Position numbers and translations under genes: made by a program. From Ferruginibacter sp. (GTDB lineage Bacteria > Bacteroidota > Bacteroidia > Chitinophagales > Chitinophagaceae), in NCBI RefSeq assembly GCF_028288465.1, contig NZ_JAQBNR010000053.1, positions 62,001 to 126,000 of the forward strand: 64,000 nucleotides of DNA, read 5' to 3'. The notes below the pieces were generated by a model. The model had not been told where the DNA came from. It ran no database searches and saw only the letters and a program-made list of their open reading frames with translations. Shown here piece by piece: positions 34,946-62,278 of this stretch. Each line of letters begins with the position of its first letter. Position 1 is the first letter of the stretch.

Positions 34946-35998
34946 TCAATCCTGCGACAACTCTTTTACAAAATCACTTACAAGGTAACTGATCAGTATT
35001 CCCGTGGTATCATTTTTTTTACCGTCAACCAATTGCACGGCACCTTCGCTGATGTGCAGGTAAGCAGGTTTGGAATCCTGGGCTGTAAAAGTAACGTATT
35101 GCCTTGCCTGCAACACAGATATTCCTGCCGGCAGCATCCCACTGCTTAGTACCTGTTCAATACAATTTAAATCCAGCTCTATGCCGGTGTAGGTATCTTC
35201 CGTAAACCCGGTTGCGTGAGCTACGGACTGCATAAAGTTTTTTCTGCCGTGGATAAAAATTTCCTCGTAGGTGATGTAATCTATAAAGGGATTGTTGTGT
35301 ATTTCCAGCAACACATTTTGGGATATTGTATTTTCATGTACACCTATAATGCAGTATTTACCAAGATACCCATCTTCTTCAGCATAATGAAACCCATTGC
35401 CATTGTGTCTTCCTTCGGTTGCACTAAAATCAACATGCGCATCCAGGTTAATACAATTGATCTGTGCAAGTGGAATAACGTCTGCTTTATGCAGCCCCTT
35501 TGCCGTTCCCTTAATAATGGGATAGGCATTGTTTTGCCCGCCCCCAATTATAATGGGTATTTTTTTTAACGCCGTAATTACTTTGATCATATTCTCCACG
35601 GCTTCATCTATGCTGTTTACTGCATGGCGGTAAGCTTCTATCAGTTCATCAGGATTATCCGCATTGTTTTCTATAAGGTATTTAATGTCTCCAAAATCAA
35701 AATGACCCAGCAGCAATATATTTTCACCATTTAAAAAATCATTGCTTTGGTTATTTAAAAAGCAGGATAAAAAGGGTAGCCAGGCGGTATCCGTACCACC
35801 TATTCCATAATTCGCCTTCACACCAATATCTTCCGGAATGCCCAGCAGCACATACTTTGCGGCAGATTGCTGCAATGCTTCCATCCAATCGTTCGTTACC
35901 GGCAGGTGTTTTATCCGCTCCCCTATCCGGGTTTCAAAACGGCGGATTTTTGTCAGCGATAGGATATCTTCTTTGGAGTAAAACATAAAATGTTTCAT
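34946..35998 (-). CDS. Arginase-fold formimidoylglutamase-like protein
   Basis: A 350-residue protein of the arginase/agmatinase/formiminoglutamase superfamily. The metal motifs are altered: IIIGGGQNN in place of GGxH, NLDAHVDF retained, and GIELDLNC in place of the SxDxD motif. Bacteroidota members with Gln at the first position are known to me and are usually annotated formimidoylglutamase (HutG), so this may be a functional subtype rather than a dead enzyme. It would turn formiminoglutamate into glutamate and formamide. The histidine-degradation genes ftcD and hutI lie 3-6 kb away on the same strand, which supports the role. The gene is otherwise complete. Confidence 0.78.
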   Translation of the reverse strand: MKHFMFYSKEDILSLTKIRRFETRIGERIKHLPVTNDWMEALQQSAAKYVLLGIPEDIGVKANYGIGGTDTAWLPFLSCFLNNQSNDFLNGENILLLGHFDFGDIKYLIENNADNPDELIEAYRHAVNSIDEAVENMIKVITALKKIPIIIGGGQNNAYPIIKGTAKGLHKADVIPLAQINCINLDAHVDFSATEGRHNGNGFHYAEEDGYLGKYCIIGVHENTISQNVLLEIHNNPFIDYITYEEIFIHGRKNFMQSVAHATGFTEDTYTGIELDLNCIEQVLSSGMLPAGISVLQARQYVTFTAQDSKPAYLHISEGAVQLVDGKKNDTTGILISYLVSDFVKELSQD

Positions 35999-37492: not shown

Positions 37493-37879
37493 TTACCAGT
37501 TCCTTCTGTCATAATCATCGTGGTCCCTGTGATAACGGCCACGGCCATAAAAATTTTCCATTACTTCATGAATTTCCCTGTCGCGTTTAAATTGCAAGCC
37601 TTCAATGATGCGTGCTTTTCTAAAACGACTCATATAGAAATTAAAACGTACGGCTTCCATTCTTTCGTGGTATTCATGGTTGATCCTGGCAATCTGCATG
37701 TTTTTTTCTCTTTCAGAAAAATAATAGTTGCGTCCGCGGTCACCATAACCGTTTTCACGGGTGTTCATACCGACAGTATTGTCATACCCTTTGTCATCGG
37801 ATCGGTCACTCCTGTATTGGGCCGATGCAGCTGTAGTAAAAAATATTACTGCGGCTAAAATTGTAAAAGTTTTTTTCAT
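37493..37879 (-). CDS. Small secreted protein, tandem paralogue 1
   Basis: A 128-residue protein with a signal peptide (residues 1-20, ending ASAQY). The mature part is rich in charged and aromatic residues. The segment YYFSEREKNMQIARINHEY is nearly identical to its neighbour at 37969, as is RDREIHEVMENF. The C-terminal region is very basic/His-rich (GRYHRDHDDYDRRNW). The two share the gap between them and the same end, so they arose by tandem duplication. Function unknown; periplasmic or outer-membrane-associated is likely. I recognise no family. Confidence 0.8.
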   Translation of the reverse strand: MKKTFTILAAVIFFTTAASAQYRSDRSDDKGYDNTVGMNTRENGYGDRGRNYYFSEREKNMQIARINHEYHERMEAVRFNFYMSRFRKARIIEGLQFKRDREIHEVMENFYGRGRYHRDHDDYDRRNW

Positions 37880-37968: not shown

Positions 37969-38367
37969 TTACCAGTTCGGCCTGTCACCGTCATATCCTC
38001 TTTTGTTGTGACCCTGGTGATGGAATTTTTCAATTACCGAATGTATCTCCCGGTCACGCTGAAAATTCAGGGCATCTATTTTACGGCCCTTTTGAAAACG
38101 GCTCATAAAAAAATGGCTCTTCACAGACTGAATTTTATAATTGTATTCCCGGTTGATTTGGGCAATCTGCATATTTTTTTCCCTTTCAGAAAAATAACGA
38201 TCGCCCCTGTCGTCATAACCCCCGCCCCTTGTTGGAAAACTGTTGACTACTTCGTGCGAATTATTGTTATCATATTTATTGTCGTTGCGGCGGTTACCAT
38301 CATATTGTGCACATGCTGCAGAAGTAGATAAAGTGGCGAGTACTAAAATTGTAAATGTCATTTTCAT
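37969..38367 (-). CDS. Small secreted protein, tandem paralogue 2
   Basis: A 132-residue protein with a signal peptide (residues 1-20, ending ACAQY). It shares YFSEREKNMQIAQINREY, SHFFMSRFQKGRKID and RDREIHSVIEKF with its neighbour, and also ends in RPNW/RRNW. The variable part is a Gly/Asn/Arg-rich linker. Upstream lies a 435-base gap holding two copies of the dispersed repeat. It is likely the first gene of the pair, 89 bases ahead of paralogue 1. Function unknown. Confidence 0.8.
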   Translation of the reverse strand: MKMTFTILVLATLSTSAACAQYDGNRRNDNKYDNNNSHEVVNSFPTRGGGYDDRGDRYFSEREKNMQIAQINREYNYKIQSVKSHFFMSRFQKGRKIDALNFQRDREIHSVIEKFHHQGHNKRGYDGDRPNW

Positions 38368-38803: not shown

Positions 38804-40480
38804 TTACAAACCAATTTTTTCATTAACGATTTTTAGAATTGTCGCTTCCAATGCTATCGTTTCCTGTTCAATTTCGTTACCCCTCGCGACAATATCTTTT
38901 ACAAACTCACCATCGGCATAACCAGCTGCATTGATGCGTACATTCATGAAAGCGCCCATCACAGCACTGCGTGCACAGAGTGCGCCAACGCCTGCATCCG
39001 ACACAGAATTGGGATTGCCAGTTTCGGCCATGGCTTTTATAACCTGCATGCTGGCATGTGCCAGCTGCATTACTTTAAATGGAATCTCAATGGCATATTT
39101 AGTGGCCAGCTGAATGGCTTTTGTGCGTGCAGCTTTTTCTTCGTCTGTTGTTTTTGGTAAACCAAATGCATCCATGATCTGGTTGAAAGCTTTGGTATCT
39201 GCATCTACCAGTTTCAGCAATTCATTTTTGTATTGCTGGCCTTTATCCGCCCAATCGCTGAACTCTTTCCAGCGATCATCCCAGCCTTTTTTATGGGATG
39301 ATAAATTGGCTACCATTGTAGCAAGAGAAATGCCTAAAGCGCCGATGTATGCTGCAATAGAGCCACCGCCAGGGGCAGGACTTTCGCTGGCAGTTTCATC
39401 TGCAAAATCAGTGAGTGATAAATTAATCAGTTTGCTGTCAACTTTCTCAGCCAGCAAATACTCTATGATTCTTTCTTCTGATTTAAAAGGCGCCAGTTCA
39501 TCCAGGCCCATCGATTTAATGGCAATTTTGATCAGTTCTTTTTCTGACACGCCTGTTGAGCGTTGTTGTTTCAACAAAAAATATTTTCCTGCATCCAGCA
39601 TGGCTTTTAATGGAATCAATCCTACCAGCTCACTGCCGGTCACGCGTATACCCCGCTCGTTTGCTTTGGTACAGACTTCATCAAATGCAATGTGCACGGG
39701 GGTTACATTGATGTTGGTGAGGTTGATGGAAATTTGTGCTATGCCATACTCTTCAATAAACCAGCCGATTGCCTTCACCGCTTTTAAACTACCGGGAATG
39801 TTTACCGGCTTACCATATTCATCCAGCTCTGGTTTACCGTTTACCTGCTTTACACGGCCAGCTTCCCTTACATCAAACGCAATGGCATTTGCACGGCGTG
39901 TGCTGGTGGTGTTCAGGTTTACATTGTAGGCCACTAAAAAATCGCGGGCACCAATTACAGTAGCGCCACGTTTGGCATCAAACATAGCAGGGCCAAAATC
40001 AGGTTTCCAATCAGGGTGTTCTATCTTTTTTGCAAAGCCCTCATACTCACCAGCACGTATATGCGATAAATTGCTGCGCTGCTTGTTAGGTTGCGCAGCT
40101 TCATATAAATACACCGGTAATTGTAACGCTTCCCCCACCCGCTTTGCCAGTTTCAGCGCATACTGTACCGTATCCTCCATTGAAATATTGGCCACCGGTA
40201 TCAGCGGACAAACATCCGTAGCGCCCATGCGGGGATGCTCGCCTTTATGCGTGCTCATGTCAATCAGCTCGCCGGCTTTTTTAATGGCCCTGAAAGCCGC
40301 TTCCACAACAGCTTCAGGCGTACCTACCATCGTCACAACGGTACGGTTGGTCGCTTTACCCGGGTCCACATTTAATAAACGTACGCCATCCACGGCTTCA
40401 ATTTCAGCAGTAATCTGGTTAATGATATTTAGATTATTTCCTTCACTAAAATTGGGAACACATTCAATAAGCTGTTGCAT
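38804..40480 (-). CDS. ftcD: Glutamate formimidoyltransferase / formimidoyltetrahydrofolate cyclodeaminase
   Basis: A 558-residue bifunctional enzyme. The formimidoyltransferase part (about 1-330) shows ECVPNFSEGNN and STHKGEHPRMGATDVCP with its catalytic His; the cyclodeaminase part (about 345-558) shows ASESPAPGGGSIAAYIGALG and the ISDAGVGALCA-like SVSDAGVGALCARSA. It moves the formimino group from formiminoglutamate to tetrahydrofolate and then releases ammonia, giving methenyl-THF. This is an alternative end of histidine breakdown to the formimidoylglutamase above. It lies 173 bases after hutI on the same strand and is probably part of the same operon. Length is as in animals (about 541). 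Confidence 0.96.
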   Translation of the reverse strand: MQQLIECVPNFSEGNNLNIINQITAEIEAVDGVRLLNVDPGKATNRTVVTMVGTPEAVVEAAFRAIKKAGELIDMSTHKGEHPRMGATDVCPLIPVANISMEDTVQYALKLAKRVGEALQLPVYLYEAAQPNKQRSNLSHIRAGEYEGFAKKIEHPDWKPDFGPAMFDAKRGATVIGARDFLVAYNVNLNTTSTRRANAIAFDVREAGRVKQVNGKPELDEYGKPVNIPGSLKAVKAIGWFIEEYGIAQISINLTNINVTPVHIAFDEVCTKANERGIRVTGSELVGLIPLKAMLDAGKYFLLKQQRSTGVSEKELIKIAIKSMGLDELAPFKSEERIIEYLLAEKVDSKLINLSLTDFADETASESPAPGGGSIAAYIGALGISLATMVANLSSHKKGWDDRWKEFSDWADKGQQYKNELLKLVDADTKAFNQIMDAFGLPKTTDEEKAARTKAIQLATKYAIEIPFKVMQLAHASMQVIKAMAETGNPNSVSDAGVGALCARSAVMGAFMNVRINAAGYADGEFVKDIVARGNEIEQETIALEATILKIVNEKIGL

Positions 40481-40653: not shown

Positions 40654-41913
40654 TCAGACATATTCTCCATTGATCATCACCTTATCAATTAAATTGCTGC
40701 CAAAAGCATACGGCAGGTAGGCAAGCGAAGGAATAGATTTGGTAAAAATCAAATTGGCCTTTTTACCGATAGTAATACTGCCGGCTGCGTCGCCCAACTC
40801 CATTGCAAAAGCGCCGTTAATGGTAGCGGCATTGATGGCTTCCTCCGGCAACATTTTCATTTGAATACAAGCCATCGCAAGCACTAAATTCATATTGCCG
40901 CTTGGCGATGAACCGGGGTTAAAATCACTTGCCAGTGCAATGGCACAACCGGCATCCATCAAAGCACGGGCATTGGGAAAACCCATTCTTAAAAAAAAAG
41001 CTGCCGTTGGCAATAAGGTGCAGATGGTTTGTTTGCCCTGCTTGTTTTGATTACCCAAGCTGTTAATTTCTTCGCCCGTTAAGGTTTCTAAATGATCAAG
41101 CGATATAGCGTTTAACTGTAGCCCCATTTCAATACCGCCAATGCTGTTTAACTGGTTTACATGTAGTTTAGGTTTCAGGCCATAACGCATGCCGGCTTTG
41201 CAAATGGTTTCCATTTCTTCCGGTGAAAAGAAACCGGTCTCACAAAACACATCGATGTAATCCGCCAAATTATCCTGAGCAATTACCGGCAGCATTTCGT
41301 TGACGATACTGTCAATATATCCACCATGATTCTCTTTGAACTGAATGGGATAAGTATGTGCTCCCAGGAAAGTAGATTTTATCAGCAGGTTCGATTTTTC
41401 TTTCAGCCGCTTTATCACCCGCAACATCTTTATCTCGCTTTCAACTGTTAATCCGTAGCCGCTTTTTATTTCGATGGAGCCCGTGCCCAGCTGACTGACT
41501 TCCTGTAATCTTTTCCAGGCCTGGTTGAACAATTCGTCTTCGGTGGCATCGTTTAATTTTTGTGCGGAGTTTAAAATTCCGCCCCCCTTCGCCGCAATTT
41601 CAGCATAGCTGATTCCTTTTATCTTATCAATAAATTCGCTTTCGCGACTGGCCGCAAACACAATGTGGGTATGGCTATCGCACCAGGCAGGCAGTACAAA
41701 ACAATCCTGTGCATCAATAATATGTTTGGGAAGACGAGGCACTTTAAGCTCCAGCTCAAACATAGCACCGTAGTCTGCAATCACGCCATCTTCAATCAAT
41801 ACAAACGCGTTTTCTATACAGGGCAGTGTGGTCATGTCCGAACCACAAAGAAGATTGCTTTGCTCCCGTACGTTAACGAGTTGTTGTATGTTGGTGATCA
41901 GTGTTGCTGACAT
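40654..41913 (-). CDS. hutI: Imidazolonepropionase
   Basis: A 419-residue amidohydrolase. Metal ligands are seen in CDSHTHIVFAASRE, in KSTFLGAHTYP, in LKLHVNQLNSIGG with SLDHLETLT, and in ALASDFNPGSSPSGNM, the latter typical of HutI. It opens the ring of 4-imidazolone-5-propanoate to N-formimino-L-glutamate, the third step of histidine breakdown. The order on the strand is MFS, Mur-like ligase, hutI, ftcD, and the gap to the Mur-like gene is 28 bases, so they are probably co-transcribed. The hutH and hutU genes are not in this window. Confidence 0.96.
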   Translation of the reverse strand: MSATLITNIQQLVNVREQSNLLCGSDMTTLPCIENAFVLIEDGVIADYGAMFELELKVPRLPKHIIDAQDCFVLPAWCDSHTHIVFAASRESEFIDKIKGISYAEIAAKGGGILNSAQKLNDATEDELFNQAWKRLQEVSQLGTGSIEIKSGYGLTVESEIKMLRVIKRLKEKSNLLIKSTFLGAHTYPIQFKENHGGYIDSIVNEMLPVIAQDNLADYIDVFCETGFFSPEEMETICKAGMRYGLKPKLHVNQLNSIGGIEMGLQLNAISLDHLETLTGEEINSLGNQNKQGKQTICTLLPTAAFFLRMGFPNARALMDAGCAIALASDFNPGSSPSGNMNLVLAMACIQMKMLPEEAINAATINGAFAMELGDAAGSITIGKKANLIFTKSIPSLAYLPYAFGSNLIDKVMINGEYV

Positions 41914-41941: not shown

Positions 41942-43321
41942 TTATAAACCTGCTAAAATTTCTTTTCCAAATTGTTCCAGCCCCGGATCTCTTGCACCCA
42001 TTAAAAGCAGCACACAATTATCTGTAAAATGTGTTCTGGCGGTTTGCAAAAAGTCTTTTCTGTCACTCACAAAAAAAGCATTTTTGCCGAGAGCTTTCAA
42101 ATCATTGATCAGGTCGTTTGCCGAAATATCTTTTACTGCTGTACCGCCGGCATAAAAAATTTCACTCATCCATATTTCATCCTGCGGCCTTAATACAGCG
42201 GCTATTTCTTTTACAAAATCATTTCTTAAAAAGCGGGTCGGTCCATATCCATGCGGTTGAAACCAGGCAATCACTTTTTCTGCAACAGGCTGGCAAGCTT
42301 CGATACTGCGGGCACATTTTACCGGGTTATGTGCGTAATCGTCAATCAGCCAAACGCCATGCTGGTGGCCCAATACCTGGTGCCGACGGTAAATACCTTC
42401 GTAGTTTTTTAAGGCTGTGGAACAGGTGGCAAGATCGACTCCCAGTTGATTGGCTACGGCTGTTGCTGCCAATGCATTTTCCATGTTCAGTTTACCAACC
42501 GTGTTTAAACTAAAATCTGTTCCGTTGATGTTGAATGTGATGGTCAGGCATTTTTGTTCAAAGGCTGCTGCCTTGTAACCTGCATCGCTATCTATACCGA
42601 CACCAAAATCATTGGCTGCATTTACAGACAACTGGCTCGCCAATGCATTGGACTGGTTGACTATAAATAATTGTTGTGTATTCTTTTTAAATGTGCCGAA
42701 TATTTCTATCAGTTCGTCAATCTCCTGGTGGTCTTTATCAATGTTTAGCAACAGGCCAACTTCAGGATGGTACTGTACAATAGAACCATCACTTTCATCA
42801 GCTTCAATTACCAGCCAATCACCTTTGCCAACTTTCGCATTGCCAATCTTTCCTTCCTTAATAATACTGATAAGGCCGGCGCCACTGATGATGCCGGGCT
42901 GTAAGCCTCCCGCTGCCAGTATATCGTACAACATAGCACTGGTGGTACTTTTACCGGAGGTTCCGCCAACGGCAATTGTTTTTTTGCTCTTTGCAATCAG
43001 TGCTAATACTTCGCTGCGTTTTAAAATAGGGATGTTGAGAAGCTTTGCTTTTTGTACTTCTGCCACCGTATCCTCAATGGCTGTGGACACAACTACCAGG
43101 TCAGTATTTGCGGTGATGCCTTCTCCGTTTTGCAAAAAACATTGTATGCCTTCCGCTGATAATTTTTCTTTGGTATCATTTGCTTCACCTTCTCTAAAAT
43201 AGCGGTCGCTGCCACTCACATTTTTTTGAATGCCTGCCAGGTATTGCGCAATGGCGCTCATGCCTGTTCCCGCAATGCCGATAAAAAAAACGTTTTTAAA
43301 ATCGCTGATATCTTTGATCAT
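41942..43321 (-). CDS. Divergent MurC/Mpl-like Mur ligase
   Basis: A 459-residue ATP-dependent ligase with the MurC-type N-terminal (FIGIAGTGMSAIAQYL and SGSDRYFREG), a central domain with P-loop AVGGTSGKSTTSAMLYDIL, and the C-terminal domain with LIDDYAHNPVKC. In MurC the P-loop is GTHGKTTT and the C-terminal motif DDYGHHP, so both are altered here (H to S, T to S; H to N). It is outside any cell-wall gene cluster and lies between an MFS transporter (15-base gap) and hutI (28-base gap). It is therefore either a specialised peptidoglycan-recycling ligase or an enzyme joining an amino acid to another acid. The substrate is open. Confidence 0.8.
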   Translation of the reverse strand: MIKDISDFKNVFFIGIAGTGMSAIAQYLAGIQKNVSGSDRYFREGEANDTKEKLSAEGIQCFLQNGEGITANTDLVVVSTAIEDTVAEVQKAKLLNIPILKRSEVLALIAKSKKTIAVGGTSGKSTTSAMLYDILAAGGLQPGIISGAGLISIIKEGKIGNAKVGKGDWLVIEADESDGSIVQYHPEVGLLLNIDKDHQEIDELIEIFGTFKKNTQQLFIVNQSNALASQLSVNAANDFGVGIDSDAGYKAAAFEQKCLTITFNINGTDFSLNTVGKLNMENALAATAVANQLGVDLATCSTALKNYEGIYRRHQVLGHQHGVWLIDDYAHNPVKCARSIEACQPVAEKVIAWFQPHGYGPTRFLRNDFVKEIAAVLRPQDEIWMSEIFYAGGTAVKDISANDLINDLKALGKNAFFVSDRKDFLQTARTHFTDNCVLLLMGARDPGLEQFGKEILAGL

Positions 43322-43336
43322 CTGCTGAACAATTTT

Positions 43337-44557
43337 TTATGAGATGGTTGTGTTATGCCGCAAGGTACGCCAGGCCAATACCAAACTGATGGTCATAAAC
43401 AGGCCGCCTAAAAAAAAGGCTGCACCAGCAAAATGCACCGGCGCACCTGGTTTGGTGAAGTAGGAGAACAAATTCGTCATTAACAACGGTCCGATAATAT
43501 TGGTAACGCTCATTACGCTGGTAAGGCCGCCCTGCAATTCGCCCTGTTCGTTTGCGGGAACCTGTCCGCTGATGATGGATTGTAATGCAGGACCGCACAC
43601 ACCACCAAGACAGTAAGGCACCAAAAATAAAAACATCATCCAGCTTTGCGTAGCCATGGAAAATAAAAACAGGCCAACAGCATATAACGCAATCCCCAGG
43701 TAAACACTTTTTTTATTTCCCAGCCACGGGTTTACAATACGTATTAAACCGCCCTGTACTGCTCCCACCAGCAAGCCAACCAAGCCAAGCGAAATACCAA
43801 TGGTGCGTGGCGTCCAGTTAAACTGCTTTATTCCGAAAAAAGACCAGGTGCTTTGTACGGCATTGGCCGCTAAATAGATCAGGAAAAAAGAAAGAATCAG
43901 CCCTCCCACCGCGGGATATTTTTGTAATTGTTTGAGACTTCCAATCGGGTTGGCTCTTTTCCACTGAAACTCTCTACGATTTTCAACCGCCAAAGATTCG
44001 GGTAACACAAAGTAGCCATACAAACAATTTACAAGACTCAGGCACGCTGCTACAACAAAAGGAACTCTAACTCCATATTCGCCGAGCAGTCCGCCAATAA
44101 CAGGCCCCAGTATAAATCCCAACCCGAATGCAGCCCCAACCATACCAAAGTTTTGTGCCCTGTTCTGTGGCGTGCTAATATCGGCAATGTAAGCAGTTGC
44201 GGTTGTAAAACTGGCACCGGCAAAACCAGCAATGAGGCGGCCTATAAACAACCAGCCGATGGAAGGTGCCAGGGCAAGGAAAATGTAATCAATTCCCAAA
44301 CCAAGTAAGGAAAGCAGCAAAACGGGACGCCTGCCATATTTATCGCTGAGGTTACCCAGCAAGGGCGCAAATAAAAATTGCATAATGGCATATGCAAAAG
44401 CCAGCCAGCCGCTATACCTTGAAGCATCGCTGATAGTACCATGAATCAGCCGCTCTATCAGCCCCGGCACAACCGGTATAATCAGACCGATACCTGTAAC
44501 ATCTATTAACAGGGTAATAAAAATAAAGCTGATGGCTGCAGAACGTTTGGTCTCCAT
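43337..44557 (-). CDS. MFS transporter of the Tet(A)/TCR type
   Basis: A 406-residue transporter with 12 predicted helices. The motif-A loop is GNLSDKYGRRPVLLLSL, and the N-terminus LIDVTGIGLIIPVVPGLIE is characteristic of drug:H+ antiporters of the tetracycline-efflux type (motif C is in LGFILGPVIGGLLG). Most such chromosomal genes are not resistance determinants. It is the first gene of the string MFS - Mur-like ligase - hutI - ftcD, with a 15-base gap to the ligase, so it may transport the substrate or product of that pathway. This is inference from position. Confidence 0.9.
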   Translation of the reverse strand: METKRSAAISFIFITLLIDVTGIGLIIPVVPGLIERLIHGTISDASRYSGWLAFAYAIMQFLFAPLLGNLSDKYGRRPVLLLSLLGLGIDYIFLALAPSIGWLFIGRLIAGFAGASFTTATAYIADISTPQNRAQNFGMVGAAFGLGFILGPVIGGLLGEYGVRVPFVVAACLSLVNCLYGYFVLPESLAVENRREFQWKRANPIGSLKQLQKYPAVGGLILSFFLIYLAANAVQSTWSFFGIKQFNWTPRTIGISLGLVGLLVGAVQGGLIRIVNPWLGNKKSVYLGIALYAVGLFLFSMATQSWMMFLFLVPYCLGGVCGPALQSIISGQVPANEQGELQGGLTSVMSVTNIIGPLLMTNLFSYFTKPGAPVHFAGAAFFLGGLFMTISLVLAWRTLRHNTTIS

Positions 44558-61528: not shown

Positions 61529-62278
61529 TTATTGTTCAGTACTTAACCCGGCAGAAAGATATTCACGGTTTAAACGGGCAATATTTGAAACTGAAATTCC
61601 CTTGGGGCATTCTGCTTCACATGCATAGGTATTGGTACAGTTACCAAAATTTTCCTTGTCCATCTGGGCTACCATATTCAACACCCTTGATTCCCTTTCC
61701 GGTTGTCCCTGCGGCAACTGGGCCAGCTGAGCCACTTTTGCACTCACAAACAACATGGCGCTGCTGTTTACACAGGTTGCAACACAGGCGCCGCAACCAA
61801 TACAGGCTGCTGCCATAAAGGCGTTGTCTGCATCTTTTTTATCAATCGGCAATGAATTGGCATCAACTGCATTACCTGTATTTACAGAGATATAACCACC
61901 TGCCTGGATGATGCGGTCAAACGAACTGCGGTCTACCATTAAATCTTTTATTACCGGAAAAGCCTTGCTGCGCCATGGTTCTACCACAATGGTATCGCCA
62001 TCTTTAAAAGCACGCATGTGCAGCTGGCAAGTAGTATTGTTTGTCCACGGCCCGTGTGCTCTTCCATCTATGTGCATGCTGCACTGACCACAAATTCCTT
62101 CGCGGCAGTCATGATCAAATGCAATCGGATCATCTCCGGCTACAATTAACTGCTCGTTTAAAACATCAAACATTTCCAAAAACGACATCTCTGATGAAAT
62201 ATCTTTTACCTGGTAGGTTTCCAAAGAACCGGCAGACTGCTTGTTTTTTTGACGCCAGATTTTTAACGTCAGATTCAT
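61529..62278 (-). CDS. sdhB: Succinate dehydrogenase / fumarate reductase iron-sulfur subunit
   Basis: A 249-residue subunit. The 2Fe-2S cluster ligands are in [15 protein letters not shown] near residue 60, and the 4Fe-4S and 3Fe-4S ligands are in [11 protein letters not shown] and CEAECPKGI. It moves electrons from the FAD of SdhA to the quinone site. Start ATG 62278 ([10 protein letters not shown]) is the form I recall for Bacteroidota; the ATG five codons upstream (62293) is possible. It is downstream of sdhA on the same strand, with a 92-base gap of short repeats. Confidence 0.96.

Follow-up and report, generated by a model that had tools for sequence, protein, structure and literature searches.

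The enzymes closest to the gene described here are the ligases that join an amino acid or peptide to UDP-N-acetylmuramic acid (UDP-MurNAc). MurC (UDP-N-acetylmuramate--L-alanine ligase) is the first of these, and in the Haemophilus influenzae enzyme His376, Arg377, Arg380, Tyr346 and His348 are believed to bind the incoming amino acid, according to the discussion of active sites by Das et al. 2011 (PMC3060825). Mpl, known from Escherichia coli and Psychrobacter, is a second MurC-like UDP-MurNAc ligase; the same paper cites complementation of a thermosensitive murC mutant by E. coli mpl on a multi-copy plasmid and a weak use of L-alanine by Mpl. Another MurC relative with an altered P-loop (GTNGKTTT) is the pseudomurein ligase pMurC of methanogens, an archaeal enzyme described as having a zinc site and a different substrate, UDP-glutamate (PMC12996149). 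We analyzed a stretch of 64,000 nucleotides from Ferruginibacter sp. (family Chitinophagaceae, phylum Bacteroidota), positions 62,001 to 126,000 of contig NZ_JAQBNR010000053.1 in assembly GCF_028288465.1, which we call the window. It carries a gene for a further ligase of this kind, MurC2, a label that we use for the whole family to which the window ligase belongs. As judged from sequence comparisons, MurC2 is probably a MurC-derived murein peptide ligase that fills the slot of MplB, our label for the Mpl-like ligase of Bacteroidota, which is of the Mpl lineage, and the two have probably been exchanged many times.

The gene and its landmarks are as follows.

41942..43321, minus strand: MurC2, a MurC-lineage ligase of 459 amino acids with three Mur ligase domains (open reading frame with an ATG start; Pfam PF01225, PF08245 and PF02875)
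43163..43213, minus strand: N-domain loop SDRYFREGEANDTKEKL, residues 37-53, placed by alignment
42947..42967, minus strand: P-loop GTSGKST, residues 119-125, with His to Ser and Thr to Ser changes relative to GTHGKTT
42320..42346, minus strand: DDYAHNPVK, residues 326-334, with the second His changed to Asn and Lys at the MurC Glu site
42236..42262, minus strand: QPHGYGPTR, residues 354-362, in which Pro360 is at the site of H. influenzae MurC Arg380

An earlier sequence-only reading of this DNA had described the gene as MurC-like over its whole length, and indeed all three Mur ligase domains were detected by Pfam. The best of the curated NCBIfam models is that of MurC (TIGR01082), although its score, 299.3 bits, is below the curated cut-off of 335.1. 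The Mpl model (TIGR01081) gives 95.1 bits with a cut-off of 388.7, and the pMurC model gives 81.6 bits with a cut-off of 560. A folylpolyglutamate synthase identity was ruled out by the family scores, since TIGR01499 (folC) reached 21.2 bits with a cut-off of 162.65. The predicted structure of the window MurC2 has a mean predicted local distance difference test (pLDDT) score of 89, and its best fold match is MurC, with Z scores of 44.2 to 4hv4 and 43.8 to 1p3d; full-length Mpl gave a Z score of 30.6 at 22% identity in the structure comparison. Besides the three-domain fold, MurC2 shares with MurC 28-30% identity, its side of the ligase tree and the catalytic Lys, Glu and His, retained as K123, E172 and H197 (roles as given in PMC3060825). 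It differs from MurC in the motif changes listed above and in a longer N-domain loop, SDRYFREGEANDTKEKL, which in the alignment has 5 residues more than that of the canonical MurC of the host genome. It also lies outside the dcw cluster and coexists with a canonical MurC.

This coexistence is plain from the host genome, where the PF08245 profile matched eight places: MurE, MurD and a canonical MurC on one contig, MurF, a MurF-alanine racemase fusion, a FolC-like gene in two places, and MurC2. The FolC-like gene, recognized by eye, is split across two contig ends. The real murC of the host is the one that stands with MurE and MurD; it scores 394.8 bits with the TIGR01082 cut-off of 335, lies on a contig other than that of MurC2, and is just preceded by a MurG-like gene, as judged by eye. 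No Mpl candidate was present among the eight matches. With a canonical murC present and no Mpl among these matches, MurC2 is an extra ligase. The same holds more widely: a canonical MurC was present in all 45 MurC2 genomes searched, 44 of them from Chitinophagaceae and one, G281, from outside this family, so the job of MurC2 is not that of MurC. As a separate observation, the host has both a stand-alone MurF (C17:5936) and the MurF-alanine racemase fusion (C34:199811).

In the genomes sampled, the distribution of MurC2 mirrors that of MplB. Among 117 genomes of Chitinophagaceae, 44 have MurC2, 67 have MplB and none has both, when an overlap of 25.2 would be expected (hypergeometric P of 5e-26, without phylogenetic correction). 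The weakest MurC2 match, a fragment, scored 285.7 bits, and every MplB match scored at least 485 bits. The count of MplB comes from a protein query, since a search with TIGR01081, which found 52 of the 117 at an E value of 1e-50, undercounted it. In a sample of 395 genomes across the phylum, for which the protein searches scored up to four candidates per genome, MurC2 was present in 8, MplB was present in 77, and here too no genome had both. G281 is one of these 8; it belongs to another order of the class, and MplB is present in each of the seven further members of its family in the sample. For a tree of 18 aligned ribosomal proteins we used 100 of the 117 genomes, leaving out two without an rplB match and 15 that were second members of their genus. 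This tree has at least 16 changes between the MurC2 and MplB labels. For 13 branch-disjoint pairs on well-supported branches, MplB differed in the opposite direction to MurC2 in 9 to 12 and in the same direction in 0 (median sign-test p, 0.001). Removal of 16 rows that were poorly covered, incomplete or long-branched left 12 pairs, on average 10.8 opposite and 0 the same. The number of label changes and the branch-disjoint pairs indicate that the alternation was repeated and does not reflect one ancient split. The simplest reading, and a well-supported one, is that MurC2 and MplB do the same job and share one slot. The sequence-only reading had offered, as one of two possibilities, a recycling ligase that hitchhiked to its present place; the many unrelated contexts of MurC2, and a presence that mirrors the absence of an Mpl-like ligase, support this one.

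The active site of MurC2 carries a consistent set of changes. We aligned 81 MurC2 loci, comprising the window and the best 80 of 406 relatives found in 84,980 species genomes; a cut MurC2 of one genome (G434) was excluded from alignments. For comparison we used 22 canonical MurCs, which were taken from the best matches of the phylum-sample MurC2 search and belong to other classes of the phylum, and six canonical MurCs of the same family, including the host's own. The altered P-loop reported before, GTSGKST, stands up well, GTSGKS being present at 81 of 81 loci, and DDYAHNP is present at 77 of 81, which makes both family traits and not sequencing errors. By comparison, GTHGKTT is found in all 22 MurCs of other classes, in all six of the same family and in E. 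coli MurC. The six also read DDYAHHPEE and QPHxxxRT without exception. The earlier contrast of DDYAHNP with DDYGHHP therefore holds in part: the second His to Asn change is unusual, but the Ala is ordinary, since the host's canonical MurC itself has DDYAHHP. A third change, which had not been noticed, is more telling than those two: the MurC motif QPHxxxRT is QPHG[YF]xPT[RK] in all 81 loci. None of the P-loop, His to Asn and Arg to Pro changes occurs in the 22 MurCs of other classes or the six of the same family.

The third change removes the residue equivalent to Arg380 of H. influenzae MurC. All 24 MurCs compared have Arg at this site, all 20 MurC2 have Pro (as do all 81 loci), all 20 MplB have Ser, and E. 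coli Mpl has Met, so that Mpl, like MurC2, has no equivalent of this arginine. A further site, Glu358 of E. coli MurC, is Glu in 24 of 24 MurC and Lys in both MurC2 (20 of 20) and MplB (20 of 20), with Ala in E. coli Mpl. MplB resembles MurC2 in its slot, in this Lys and in the lost arginine, but differs from it in lineage, in its motifs (GSHGKT and RDFAHAPSK) and in having a neighborhood shared by 15 of 20 loci. MurC2 also differs from the known Mpl enzymes in the Mpl-specific (S/T)AFFDKRSK loop: E. coli Mpl and 13 of 20 MplB have the R[PS]KF piece of this loop, but 0 of the 81 MurC2 loci do.

The ligase tree, with 54 rows, held 14 of 20 MplB, 14 of 19 MurC2 plus that of the window, the 22 canonical MurCs plus the host's own, and E. 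coli MurC and Mpl. MurC2 forms one clade (support of 100) on the MurC side (98 by the Shimodaira-Hasegawa-like approximate likelihood ratio test [SH-aLRT]), and MplB likewise forms a single clade (100), with which E. coli Mpl groups at an SH-aLRT of 98. This is moderate evidence for the placement of the two lineages, and MurC2 may branch from within the diversity of MurC. As for its spread, nine MurC2 loci of Bacteroidales type (eight from Bacteroidales and one, L077, assigned only to Bacteroidia) encode proteins 72-74% identical to that of the window, and in the family tree they lie inside the Chitinophagaceae rows, with an SH-aLRT of 85 for the fork that holds them. Likewise, the MurC2 proteins of the window and G281 are 71% identical, while the canonical MurCs of the same two genomes are 48% identical. 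This nesting and this gap in identity point to horizontal transfer, by which MurC2 has apparently spread. A spread on plasmids was considered and rejected, since 76 plasmid records matched but none of them at 60% identity or more. We also looked for a replacement of MplB by MurC2 in situ and did not see it. MplB is followed at 15 of its 20 loci by two genes that by eye look like an exonuclease and a glycosyltransferase gene, respectively; when 20 MurC2 loci and the stretch from the window were compared, neither gene had a homologue there. Apparently, the replacement did not take place at the same site.

We propose that MurC2 would re-attach a recycled stem peptide to UDP-MurNAc, in place of Mpl, and that MurC2 and MplB were swapped many times in Bacteroidia, apparently with horizontal spread of MurC2; the direction of these swaps we infer. 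The most likely chemistry, predicted from the alternation with MplB, is re-attachment of the tripeptide. In a peptide donor the carboxylate of the L-alanine is already in an amide bond, so losing the arginine that would hold free L-alanine fits a peptide substrate for MurC2. The occurrence of an LD-carboxypeptidase family also speaks for this proposal. E. coli LdcA, a member of the LD-carboxypeptidase family PF02016, trims tetrapeptide to tripeptide, as stated in PMC13046382. PF02016 is found twice in the host genome. Among 98 Bacteroidia, picked by kinship and with two match-less genomes of the search taken as outside the class, it is present in 81 of 85 with either ligase versus 6 of 13 with neither (Fisher test, 3e-5, without phylogenetic correction). 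The two host matches adjoin each other (C16:284367-285646) and lie about 13 kb from the canonical murC.

Several observations weigh against this proposal. Six of the 117 family genomes have neither ligase, although four of the six are less than 90% complete. Four ligase-bearing Bacteroidia lack PF02016, and it is retained in 6 of the 13 that have neither ligase. No recycling gene was seen adjoining MurC2. The classical AmpG uptake route seems to be missing from the host and the family: the AmpG model gave one partial match of 20 bits in the host genome and matched 8 of 117 family genomes at an E value of 1e-20, none above its cut-off. An AmpG-independent route through an ATP-binding cassette (ABC) transporter is described for Agrobacterium (PMC9790009). 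The best NCBIfam model for MplB is that of MurC, with 250 bits versus 205 bits for Mpl, and we found no assay of MurC2 or MplB in the open-licence literature searched; a shared slot need not mean tripeptide recycling. Branches in the ligase tree are very long, only one experimentally known Mpl is in it, and MurC2 joins E. coli MurC there at an SH-aLRT of 81. The sequence-only reading was to be given up if the genome had no other murC and the protein grouped inside normal MurC, or if its changes were standard in Bacteroidota MurC. This did not come about: a separate murC is present, and the P-loop, His to Asn and Arg to Pro changes are absent from the canonical MurCs compared, although the grouping, given this join, is less clear. 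In the active site, the equivalents of Tyr346 and His348 are retained almost throughout (in MurC2, Tyr in 18 of 20 and Phe in 2 of 20 at the former, His in 20 of 20 at the latter). The Arg377 site is not decisive, as Thr or Leu is already present there in Bacteroidota MurC, and for this reason the idea of a paired loss of Arg377 and Arg380 in MurC2 was cut back.

Some of these points would suit a different chemistry in the same slot, in which MurC2 and MplB would both link a UDP-activated acid to another amine, some other peptide or an amino acid; they might, for example, salvage muropeptides from the environment or belong to an unrecognized glycopeptide pathway. Mutual exclusion shows that the two are equivalent but not what their substrate is, AmpG is lacking in most of the family genomes, and MplB stays below the cut-off of the Mpl model, with 205 and 202 bits for two members and 0 of 117 genomes above it. 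We nevertheless consider this unlikely, since MurC2 and MplB are both placed among UDP-MurNAc ligases, MplB groups with E. coli Mpl and in most members shares the R[PS]KF piece with it, and an LD-carboxypeptidase co-occurs with the two ligases. Less likely still is that MurC2 is a second MurC isozyme that in certain conditions adds L-alanine, or a different small amino acid (Gly or Ser, for instance), to UDP-MurNAc. MurC is both its best family model and its best fold match, and the retained Tyr346 and His348 equivalents also speak for such an isozyme. However, the Arg380 equivalent is lost at all 81 loci, and MurC2 coexists with canonical MurC in all 45 genomes searched and yet excludes MplB, a pattern that one would not expect of a MurC isozyme.

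On balance we lean toward the view that murein peptide ligation arose at least twice in evolution, once in the Mpl lineage and once in the MurC-derived MurC2. In Bacteroidia the latter would have displaced Mpl repeatedly and reciprocally, with horizontal transfer playing a part; the two would have lost the L-alanine-binding arginine convergently and would share a Glu to Lys change next to the catalytic His. We found no report in the open-licence literature of a second MurC replacing Mpl in Bacteroidota. If MurC2 is a peptide ligase, then a seemingly redundant MurC would be a second, independently evolved peptide-recycling ligase, and it would complete the recycling route in those Bacteroidia that look as if they had no Mpl. 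The pair would also serve as a natural experiment in the shift of a Mur ligase from amino acid donor to peptide donor. For annotation, we suggest a simple rule, that the presence or absence of Arg at the site of H. influenzae MurC Arg380 would separate L-alanine ligases from peptide ligases.

In the window, the following genes stand near MurC2.

43337..44557, minus strand: major facilitator superfamily (MFS) transporter of TetA/B/C type, a neighbor only (NF012174, 337 bits, under the cut-off of 475)
40654..41913, minus strand: hutI, imidazolonepropionase, linked in part of the family only (NCBIfam, 384 bits; cut-off, 298)
38804..40480, minus strand: ftcD with a cyclodeaminase-like C-terminal part, a neighbor only (TIGR02024, 373 bits; cut-off, 221)
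34946..35998, minus strand: hutG-like gene (TIGR01227, formimidoylglutamase, a weak match of 46 bits; cut-off, 229)

The sequence-only reading had placed the ligase 15 bp after the MFS gene and 28 bp before hutI, with ftcD next and no cell-wall cluster. Both distances are correct, hutI and ftcD score above their NCBIfam cut-offs, and none of the four neighbors scanned (MFS, hutI, ftcD and the hutG-like gene) is a cell-wall gene. The order of MFS gene, ligase and hutI, however, is not conserved. Across the 81 MurC2 loci, some of which end at contig ends, hutI is present at 33, the MFS gene at 24 and ftcD at 22, and layouts vary widely. The nine loci of Bacteroidales type have no homologue of hutI, ftcD or the MFS gene anywhere in the fetched stretch. 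This suggests that the hut string around MurC2 is a local arrangement and that its neighbors are incidental. Although the MFS gene, MurC2, hutI and ftcD are codirectional and tightly spaced in the window and close relatives, a hut-metabolism role, in which MurC2 would join glutamate or a histidine-derived product to an acid as the same reading had also proposed, is very improbable and was rejected on this patchy gene context, many Chitinophagaceae MurC2 genes standing elsewhere. The product of the hutG-like gene may be another ureohydrolase. Between it and ftcD, also on the minus strand, are two adjacent genes (37493-37879 and 37969-38367) for small, secreted-looking proteins of similar sequence, which begin with MKKTFTILAA and MKMTFTILVL and appear to be a tandem duplication.
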